Assembly: GCA_026706485.1 (NCBI GenBank)
Contig: JAPOYR010000011.1
Location: 1-64,000 of the forward strand
Direction of reading: 5' to 3'
Source of the DNA: Chloroflexota bacterium
GTDB taxonomy: Bacteria; Chloroflexota; UBA11872
DNA: 64,000 bases
The notes under the pieces are model-generated. The model searched no databases. It was not told the origin of the DNA and saw nothing but the letters and a program-made list of their open reading frames with translations. The position numbers and the translations under genes are program-made. This document shows, piece after piece, positions 37,747 to 62,705 of this stretch (position 1 is the stretch's first letter; each line of letters starts with the position of its first letter).

Positions 37747-38148
37747 ATGCGGGAGTGGGTCAGGGTGAGGGGGCGGCCGGTAGTCCTCTATGACGGCCGG
37801 TGCGCCTTCTGCCGCGTCTGCGCCAGAGTCCTGCGATGCCTCGACCGAGGCGACCGCCTTGACCTGTTGGACTTCAACCGTCCGGAAGCCGAAGCCCTCC
37901 TGGCACCGCTCCCGGCAGCGGAACGCCGCACCGCTCTCCACATCGCGGACACTGAGGGCTCGGTCCACTCCGCCGGCCCGGCGCTGCGCCGGGCGCTGGC
38001 CGAAGCCATCGGTCCAGGTGCGGAGCGGGTGCTCACCAACGCGGCGGTCGCGCCGGTGGTCGACGCCGCCTATCGCGTCGTTGCCGCACGGCGCCACCAC
38101 CTCGGGTGGACCGAGCGGTTCACGCGCCGGCACGATGCGGGCAATTGA
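37747..38148 (+). CDS. DCC-family thiol-disulfide oxidoreductase-like protein (DUF393)
   Basis: A 133-residue protein with the family signature 'VVLYDGRCAFCRVCARVLRC' (C19-x2-C22) near the N-terminus and a C-terminal helical part ('VLTNAAVAPVVDAAYRVVA'). The thioredoxin-like redox role is predicted from the family, not proven. The start is ambiguous among ATG 37747 and nearby GTG codons. It lies between the duplicated-module protein and an epimerase gene without overlap. Confidence 0.85.
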   Translation: MREWVRVRGRPVVLYDGRCAFCRVCARVLRCLDRGDRLDLLDFNRPEAEALLAPLPAAERRTALHIADTEGSVHSAGPALRRALAEAIGPGAERVLTNAAVAPVVDAAYRVVAARRHHLGWTERFTRRHDAGN

Positions 38149-40032: not shown

Positions 40033-40067
40033 CCCCTCACCCCAACCCTCTCCCCATGGGAGAGGGA
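40033..40067. repeat. family C-like hairpin repeat
   Basis: CCCCTCACCCCAACCCTCTC, CCCATGGG, AGAGGG. The CCCTCTCCC arm pairs with GGGAGAGGG. It sits immediately after the aldo/keto reductase gene, similar in placement to the copies at 3644 and 13451. A partial family B end (CGGAATGACGGAGG) follows. Confidence 0.65.
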
Positions 40068-40150: not shown

Positions 40151-40441
40151 ATGACTGACGAGATCGACCGGCTGGTATGCGCGGTGGTGCACAACGACGA
40201 CGCCAACCGCGTAAATCAGGCACTGGTCGACGAGGGCTACGGCGTCACCCGCATCACGGCGCAGGGCGGATTCCTGCGCCGGGGAAACGCAGTCTTCGTC
40301 ATCGGCGTGGCCCAGTCGGCGGTCGACGCCGTCATCGACGTGCTGAAACGGAGTGCACACCAGGCAGCCGGTGCGGACGCCGGCGGCTCGGCCTACGGCA
40401 TCGTATTCGTGGTGCGGGCCGGCCAGTTCGCGAGGCTCTGA
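40151..40441 (+). CDS. PII-like cyclic-di-AMP receptor family protein (DarA/PstA-like), copy 1
   Basis: A 96-residue ferredoxin-like protein of the DUF970/DarA family, trimeric c-di-AMP sensors in Firmicutes. 'LVCAVVHNDDANRVNQALVD' and 'GYGVTRITAQ' lead to 'GGFLRRGN' at residues 39-46, matching the ligand-loop motif GGFLRxGN. The usual C-terminal strand 'VEVGGATVF' is missing; the protein ends 'GIVFVVRAGQFARL'. ATG at 40151 is preferred to GTG at 40118. A diverged second copy begins eight bases after its stop. No diadenylate cyclase is nearby. Confidence 0.82.
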   Translation: MTDEIDRLVCAVVHNDDANRVNQALVDEGYGVTRITAQGGFLRRGNAVFVIGVAQSAVDAVIDVLKRSAHQAAGADAGGSAYGIVFVVRAGQFARL

Positions 40442-40448
40442 CGTGACC

Positions 40449-40787
40449 ATGACCGCCGGCGGGAACGACCGCCTCGCCATCGCCGTGGTGCAGGACGCGG
40501 ACGCGATGCGCCTATCCAACGCGCTCAACGACGCCGGATTCGCGCACACGCGGATTCCGACGCGCGGAGGATTCCTGCAGCGCGCAAGCGAGGCCATCAT
40601 GGTGGCCTATTCGCACACACGCCACGAGACCCTGATGGAGCTGATCGCCAGCCAATGCCAGACCCGCAGCGAGATGCAGATCGTCTCGCTGGCCGGGGAC
40701 ACGATGCTGCTGGCGGAGCCGGTGGAGGTCGAGGTCGGCGGCGCCACGGTCTTCACGCTGGAGATCGAGCGCTTCGTCCGGCTCTAA
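40449..40787 (+). CDS. PII-like cyclic-di-AMP receptor family protein, copy 2
   Basis: A 112-residue paralog. 'RLAIAVVQDADAMRLSNALND' matches the DarA N-terminus and the C-terminal strand 'PVEVEVGGATVF' (residues 91-102) is fully conserved. The ligand-loop, however, reads 'GGFLQRASE' instead of GGFLRxGN. It thus keeps the part that copy 1 lost and lost the part that copy 1 kept. A GTG at 40443 is an alternative start. The two genes are surely co-transcribed. Whether they form a mixed trimer is an open inference. Confidence 0.82.
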   Translation: MTAGGNDRLAIAVVQDADAMRLSNALNDAGFAHTRIPTRGGFLQRASEAIMVAYSHTRHETLMELIASQCQTRSEMQIVSLAGDTMLLAEPVEVEVGGATVFTLEIERFVRL

Positions 40788-42523: not shown

Positions 42524-42757
42524 ATGCAAGTCAACATGCACGAGGCCAAGTCGCAGCTCTCGCGACTCGGCGAGCGGGCCTGGGAGGGCGAAGAGGTCGT
42601 CATCGCGAAGGCGGGCAAGCCGTATCTGCGGCTGGTGCCCTTCCGGCCAGAGAACAAGCCGCGAAGGCTTGGCGACCTCAAGGGCCAGATCTGGATCGCT
42701 CCCGACTTCGATGAGACGCCCGAGGAAGTCATCAAGGCCTTCGAAGGCGACTTGTGA
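42524..42757 (+). CDS. Phd/YefM-family antitoxin
   Basis: A 77-residue protein. 'MQVNMHEAKSQLSRLGERAWEGE' then 'VVIAKAGKPYLRLVPF' is the Phd/YefM N-terminal DNA-binding fold. The C-terminal 'ETPEEVIKAFEGDL' is the likely toxin-neutralising tail. CAGGAG seven bases upstream fixes the ATG. It overlaps the VapC gene by four bases and probably represses the operon through the repeats just upstream. Confidence 0.9.
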   Translation: MQVNMHEAKSQLSRLGERAWEGEEVVIAKAGKPYLRLVPFRPENKPRRLGDLKGQIWIAPDFDETPEEVIKAFEGDL

Positions 42758-43146
42758 GGCGCCTGCTGATGGACACCCATGTGCTCCTGTGGGCACTTGG
42801 GGCCGAGCAAATGCTTGGAAACGACGTGCGTCAAGCCTTAACCGATCCGCGGAACGACGTATTCGTCAGCGCGGCTAGCGTCTGGGAAGTCGCTATCAAG
42901 AGCGCGCTCGGGAAGCTGCGAGCCCCCGAGCACTTGGCCGCGGCGGTTGAGGCAGCCGGATTCACCGAGCTTCCGGTGACGTTCATTCACGCCGAACAGG
43001 CGGGGAGCCTGCCCACGATTCATGGCGATCCGTTCGACCGGATGCTGGTGGCGCAGGCGCAGATCGAAGGGCTCACCCTGGTGACCGCCGACGCCAACAT
43101 GCTGCGCTACCCCGTCCGCACGATGGCGGCGCGGGACGGCGTCTAG
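42754..43146 (+). CDS. vapC: VapC-family PIN-domain toxin
   Basis: A 130-residue PIN-domain RNase. Acidic metal-binding residues are visible as D7 ('LLMDTHVLLWAL'), the Glu in 'ASVWEVAIKSALGK', and the Asp residues in 'DPFDRMLVAQAQIEG' and 'LVTADANML'. The GTG start overlaps the antitoxin stop (GTGA). Typical VapC targets are tRNAs; the target here is unknown. The cognate antitoxin is Phd-type, a common hybrid pairing. Confidence 0.92.
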   Translation: MRRLLMDTHVLLWALGAEQMLGNDVRQALTDPRNDVFVSAASVWEVAIKSALGKLRAPEHLAAAVEAAGFTELPVTFIHAEQAGSLPTIHGDPFDRMLVAQAQIEGLTLVTADANMLRYPVRTMAARDGV

Positions 43147-62666: not shown

Positions 62667-62705
62667 CACCCTCACCCTAACCCTCTCCCTTCCAGGGAGA
62701 GGGGA
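62667..62705. repeat. family C-like hairpin repeat
   Basis: CACCCTCACCCTAACCCTCTC then CCTTCCAGGGAGAGGGGA. The CCCTCTCCC and GGGAGAGGG arms pair. It is closest to the copy at 40033. Confidence 0.65.

Follow-up and report, generated by a model that had tools for sequence, protein, structure and literature searches.

The two adjacent DarA/PstA-family genes described here are best explained by a heteromeric, PII-like c-di-AMP receptor of the DarA/PstA type, with one subunit encoded by each gene, in which mixed trimers would form, bind the messenger and pass on an output; we give this reading a probability of about 0.5. The genes lie in a stretch of 64,000 nucleotides (the window, contig JAPOYR010000011.1 of assembly GCA_026706485.1) from a Chloroflexota bacterium. 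The pair is real and conserved and appears to be functional, and the pairing is part of a genuine, larger pattern: similar pairs, including fusions in a single open reading frame, recur in Chloroflexota.

The gene pair and its conservation in the family

The features of the pair, in the numbering of Listeria monocytogenes PstA where PstA residues are named, are as follows.

40151..40441, + strand: copy 1, short (S-type) DarA-like protein of 96 aa; PF06153 at residues 7-70 with 59.7 bits; beside a full type in 19/19 family genomes
40265..40288, + strand: intact T-loop GGFLRRGN of copy 1 (G34-N41), from alignment with L. monocytogenes PstA residues 2-106
40355..40396, + strand: short unstructured stretch in place of the copy 1 B-loop; residues 69-82 without helix or strand in the AlphaFold2 model, residues 73-80 with pLDDT <50
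40397..40417, + strand: retained terminal strand b4 of copy 1 with Phe99; E83-89 by DSSP on the model, F99 in 19/19
40449..40787, + strand: copy 2, full-length (F-type) DarA-like protein of 112 aa; PF06153 at residues 8-111 with 90.8 bits
40566..40589, + strand: T-loop GGFLQRAS of copy 2, GGFL kept and N41 replaced by S in the alignment (S41 in 6/6 genomes of the genus, N41 in 13/13 of the sister genus)
40659..40745, + strand: B-loop of copy 2 with the VEVGGA kink; GG94-95 and A96 in 19/19
40719-40754, + strand: PVEVEVGGATVF of copy 2, at the kink of the B-loop and near the protein end

The sequence-only reading from which we started had recognized two neighboring members of this family, and both indeed exceed the Pfam cut-off for PF06153 (27 bits). 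Both miss the cut-off of the NCBIfam DarA equivalog NF058593 (140 bits), copy 1 with 62 and copy 2 with 89.6 bits, and neither is therefore filed as DarA itself. The stop codon of copy 1 is separated by 7 nt from the ATG of copy 2, and an in-frame GTG lies 1 nt past this stop. A repeated element, CCTCACCCCAACCCTCTCCC with a palindromic tail, is present at window positions 40035-40054, 62670-62689 and, with three mismatches, 37751-37770; these three matches are far above the 0.01 expected by chance, and one copy is located just 5' of the pair.

Copy 1 was modeled with AlphaFold2 (mean pLDDT 80, pTM 0.73). The model has the secondary structure E7-14 H15-27 E32-35 E46-53 H55-68 E83-89 according to DSSP and contains the PII-like beta-alpha-beta core, and a Foldseek search with it ranked PstA structures first (4rww, E 1.6e-7). 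Phe99 is aligned within YGIVFVV. As judged from alignment and model, the arm formed by the B-loop is gone from copy 1, and so is the GG94-95 kink, while the last strand remains. The initial reading of copy 1 was thus correct in that GGFLRRGN is kept and the VEVGGA-type kink is absent; the C-terminal strand that it took to be missing is present. Its description of copy 2, with PVEVEVGGATVF near the end and GGFLQRASE in the loop, holds in full, and the GGA94-96 kink with the long B-loop is found in this copy.

Conservation was assessed in 19 genomes of the family, six from the genus of the window (g1) and 13 from its sister genus (g2). A short gene followed by a full-length gene occurs in all 19, so that the tandem arrangement, whose conservation had been put forward as a check, is confirmed. 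The gap is about 7 nt throughout g1, and in g2 it does not exceed 24 nt in 12 of the 13 genomes. According to the alignment, copy 1 retains T28, GGFL, G40, N41, G47 and F99 in 19/19 genomes and copy 2 retains T28, GGFL, GG94-95, A96 and F99 in 19/19. Residue 47 of copy 2 is alanine in every genome, and residue 41 is serine in g1 (6/6) and asparagine in g2 (13/13). The "complementary losses" of the sequence-only reading are consequently present as motifs in the window, but on the side of copy 2 the loss of N41 is confined to the genus of the window. Both genes are under purifying selection: within g1, dN/dS is 0.105 for copy 1 and 0.083 for copy 2, as compared with 0.085 for the canonical copy described below.

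Ten other genes of the window were used as queries against the surroundings of the pair. They recur near it in five other g1 loci, and none was found near it in the 13 g2 loci; as the flanks differ and the pair stays, it is the pair and not the neighborhood that is kept. A functional link to the flanking aldo/keto reductase, epimerase and amidohydrolase genes was rejected because these queries had no match in the sister genus. Neither Pfam searches with the window genes nor the comparison of g1 and g2 flanks revealed a transporter beside the pair, and no target is visible in the window flanks. A gene for a Phd/YefM-like antitoxin (below the Pfam cut-off) followed by a PIN-domain gene occupies window positions 42524-43146 (+) and is found at the same place in five other g1 genomes, in one of them as partial matches only.

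Four PF06153 proteins above cut-off are encoded in the genome of the window. Apart from the pair, these are a canonical full-length copy (C8:81775), by its motifs a complete receptor, directly after tmk, and a second short copy that is not linked to the pair (C11:439479-439667; L117:3793-4086). The tmk-linked copy carries N41 and GG94-95 in 19/19 family genomes. The second short copy keeps GGFLRRGN, has V99 in place of F99, and was found in 6/6 g1 genomes and in none of the g2 genomes; it adjoins a gene that, named by eye, resembles inositol monophosphatase. A diadenylate cyclase domain (PF02457, 109.4 bits) is encoded at C10:59966, and the domain of this c-di-AMP synthase was detected in all 46 genomes tested.

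Binding half-sites in the window and in other pairs

The B-loop of PstA is flexible and is thought to contact partner proteins. As the accounts of the ligand site in two structural papers have it, c-di-AMP sits between two PstA subunits, one of which contributes an A-face composed of residue 26, T28, G47 and residue 108, while the neighboring subunit contributes a B-face composed of GGFL34-37, N41, F99 and the B-loop residue Gly94 (PMC4316997, PMC4475381). An N41A exchange strongly weakened c-di-AMP binding according to both (PMC4316997, PMC4475381). The contacts T28, GGFL34-37, N41, G47 and F99 are all present in copy 1, whereas copy 2 carries N41S and G47A. Copy 1 hence keeps both half-sites, and the pairs of the window's genus fall into the class in which the short protein alone is complete ('S_homo_ok') in 6/6 genomes.

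We then scored the half-sites of 100 pairs, 64 from profile searches and 36 from a T-loop pattern scan that is biased (see below), with some organisms represented in both sets. This set leaves out L251 (broken frame), L142 and L144 (both domains labeled S; same contigs as L229 and L220), the scan loci below L134 (same family as f1), L034 and L097 (the pair of G030, contained in the scan set as L187). Both partners have both faces in 34 pairs, only the short partner (S) in 36, including those of the window's genus, and only the full-length partner (F) in 11. In another 11 pairs neither partner alone is complete but the mixed junction is live (nine from family f10 and one each from f42 and f79), and in eight there is no live site. 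Among the 19 f10 pairs, 18 F proteins have N41 and six have T28, and 18 S proteins have T28 and two have N41. The partners in f10 thus often keep different halves, which amounts to a true split of half-sites. In f42 pairs (e.g. L240, L242 and L246), N41 is absent from both partners, replaced by S in F and by R in S. No site of the published type then remains, and a changed ligand is possible for these pairs.

T28 and N41 are kept by all 47 unpaired F proteins, while at least one face is lost in 31 of the 64 paired ones, so that paired F proteins seem to be released from being complete receptors. Counts of fewest changes gave six losses of T28 and six of N41 in F, and five of N41 and one of T28 in S. 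When partners were shuffled among the 64 pairs, no excess of live combinations was observed (56 as compared to 57.2 expected, P 0.84), and the same was true for 29 collapsed patterns (P 0.88). Under the criteria used, eight of the 64 pairs have no live half-site combination. Complementary loss was thus not found to be a rule across the phylum.

Spread in Chloroflexota, fusions and neighboring exchangers

In a profile search, the PF06153 family was found in 252 of 400 genomes of the phylum, and a count by eye gave at least two copies in about 145 of these 252. Adjacency was checked in 71 of the approximately 145 multi-copy genomes and additionally in 41 genomes of the window's class. F and S, labels that are based mainly on length, are adjacent in 28 of the 71 mapped genomes: in 12/12 of family f10, 9/9 of f42, two of f40 and one each of f64, f66, f69, f79 and f38. 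The copies lie apart in f16, f26, f49, f53, f57, f59, f72 and the remaining mapped genomes. Unpaired short copies occur in f2, f4, f16, f49, f53 and f72, besides the second short copy of the window's genus. An S gene without an F gene is rare; among 27 weak-scoring genomes with a single match only G346 looks S-only, to which the incomplete G039 can be added. The T-loop pattern scan, which is biased to an intact short T-loop and of which 80 of 212 confirmed loci were kept, added pairs in Anaerolineae, Caldilineaceae and Thermoflexales, among other named records. Of 149 genomes sampled from one other phylum, around a MAG of the Lachnospiraceae, 70 have the family; almost all matches are full-length, and a single F-S neighbor pair was seen (G448:C3:865978-866507).

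A tree of 113 rows, built on only 99 columns and with long branches flagged by the tool, unites the short copies of the window's class in a single clade with 43 rows (SH-aLRT 97). This clade does not include the short copies from f10, G051 and several further genomes of the phylum. Given this scatter, more than one loss of the B-loop is probable. By their tree positions, short and full copies are old paralogues; a recent tandem duplication was rejected because the two copies sit on distant branches.

F and S are encoded in one open frame at 12 loci (L079, L139, L143, L150, L160, L161, L164, L171, L173, L177, L189 and L197). Nine of the 12 have an internal Shine-Dalgarno-like match of at least four bases 5' of the S start, as compared with 12.2% of control positions (P 9e-7, a value that assumes independent loci, which related loci are not). 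Because of this site, an F-S protein and free S could both be made, and a transcript yielding the two would suffice for one three-domain ring. A two-domain fusion could equally join two trimers, one of F and one of S; an AlphaFold2 model of one fusion (pTM 0.62) did not settle the placement of the domains.

A lead to function comes from the neighborhood of pairs elsewhere. In some f10 genomes, the F domain forms the C-terminal end of a Na+/H+ exchanger (PF00999) of 632-664 residues, with the S gene next downstream. Such exchanger-F proteins were confirmed by Pfam at L220, L223 and L232, and L230 and L233 read alike. L229 shows the same layout with the exchanger split over two frames. At L223, a Met of its own is present in the F part, which could therefore be translated separately. 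PF00999-type exchanger genes also adjoin the unfused pairs L085, L086, L221, L222, L226 and L235 and the fusion L150, and a Na/Ca exchanger gene is located after the fusions L173 and L164. A gene for an MGH1-like glycoside hydrolase lies upstream of several pairs in f10 and f42 (L219, L224, L227, L228, L231, L233, L234, L239 and L243). MGH1-like enzymes act on compatible solutes, and this neighbor would fit an osmotic role. The neighbor queries matched at 25 of 101 pair loci and at none of 109 unpaired loci; this comparison is biased toward f10, f79 and two scan loci, from which the query genes came, and many unpaired loci have shorter flanks. With F and S fused to or beside cation exchangers, the likeliest output is a control over ion or osmotic balance. 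The window pair has neither exchanger nor hydrolase neighbors, and carrying this function over to it is an argument by analogy.

Mixed trimers or separate receptors, and relation to known systems

In the two-subunit receptor that we favor for the window, S (copy 1) would be the ligand-competent, arm-less subunit, having both pocket faces and no B-loop, and F (copy 2) the armed subunit, with a flexible B-loop and its own T-loop altered by N41S. Co-translation from the tight gene pair would most likely lead to mixed trimers. c-di-AMP may be held by S together with the adjoining face of F, whose arm would contact the target. The paired receptor would work alongside the separate canonical DarA encoded next to tmk, and its likeliest output, by analogy with the exchanger loci, would be control of ion or osmotic balance. 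A more specific version extends to Chloroflexota as a whole: f10 receptors would bind c-di-AMP only at the junction of F (GGFL/N41 and the arm) and S (T28/G47), messenger-dependent assembly would gate the Na+/H+ exchanger where F is its tail, and the window pair would be a soluble member of this group. We offer this version tentatively and regard it as less likely than not.

It is quite possible, if not what we favor, that the two genes encode independent homotrimeric paralogues, copy 1 being a self-sufficient arm-less receptor and copy 2 binding another ligand or none, and that they are neighbors merely by descent and shared expression. The main PstA side-chain contacts kept in copy 1 agree with this, as do the lone short copies of other families, the unlinked second short copy of the genus (C11:439479) and the lack of a complementarity excess upon shuffling. 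However, independence does not readily account for adjacency in 19/19 genomes despite changing flanks, for repeated fusion into one reading frame, or for the nine of 19 f10 pairs with a live mixed junction in which neither partner is complete.

The sequence-only reading had gone further and raised the possibility of an obligate mixed trimer whose binding determinants are split, the T-loop of copy 1 and the B-loop strand of copy 2 completing one pocket. Complementary motifs do exist in the window, and f10 presents a true split, with GGFL/N41 kept by F and T28 by S. In the structures as described, nevertheless, a single monomer supplies T-loop, N41, F99 and Gly94 (PMC4316997, PMC4475381); both of the motifs concerned lie on the B-face and hence cannot complement each other within one pocket. 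As copy 1 retains both faces, the idea fails for the window pair, and N41 of copy 2 is intact in the sister genus (13/13). Moreover, a third copy with both motifs exists in the window genome and in all 19 family genomes and short copies occur unpaired elsewhere, findings that this reading had itself named as evidence against it. We consider it improbable. That the pair is a decaying duplicate or an assembly artefact is hardly credible: the absence of a B-loop in one copy and the changed T-loop of the other do resemble decay, but the dN/dS values, the intact reading frames, the same forms family-wide and a predicted copy 1 fold close to PstA structures led us to reject it. The heteromeric receptor remains our preferred explanation.

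E. coli GlnB and GlnK form mixed PII trimers and provide a precedent for mixed trimers of PII paralogues; they differ from the window pair in that each is a complete PII protein, and their ligands are different ones. Sphaerobacter thermophilus and Thermomicrobium roseum belong to the same phylum as the window organism and resemble it in having multiple copies. Three PstA homologues are reported for each of them, and the accessible text of that report notes only their number and describes no short type, pairing or half-site loss (PMC4316997). The initial reading knew of no description of such a pair, and our literature search, which covered sources other than subscription reviews, likewise found no published account of short or paired DarA or of exchanger-DarA fusions.

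The closest relative is the homotrimer DarA/PstA/YaaQ (PF06153; PDB 4rww, 4d3h, 4wk1, 4rle and 3m05), with which the pair shares the family, the predicted fold, T-loop and pocket residues of copy 1 and the B-loop kink of copy 2. It differs in having two dissimilar co-encoded subunits, one without a B-loop and the other with an altered T-loop. A natural division into arm-less and armed subunits would allow the two roles of a PII-like trimer to be studied apart. The downstream partners of DarA/PstA remain unknown according to a 2025 paper (PMC12802241), and a lineage with a DarA domain inside a cation/proton exchanger offers a concrete, testable partner. In systems of the CpaA/KtrA type, c-di-AMP is described as controlling cation transport via an RCK_C domain (PMC4316997, PMC7288161). 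The f10 exchanger-F proteins resemble CpaA/KtrA in that a c-di-AMP signal would be joined to a cation/proton antiporter; in contrast to the RCK_C receptor domain, they have a PII-like F domain fused to PF00999, followed by a separate S gene.
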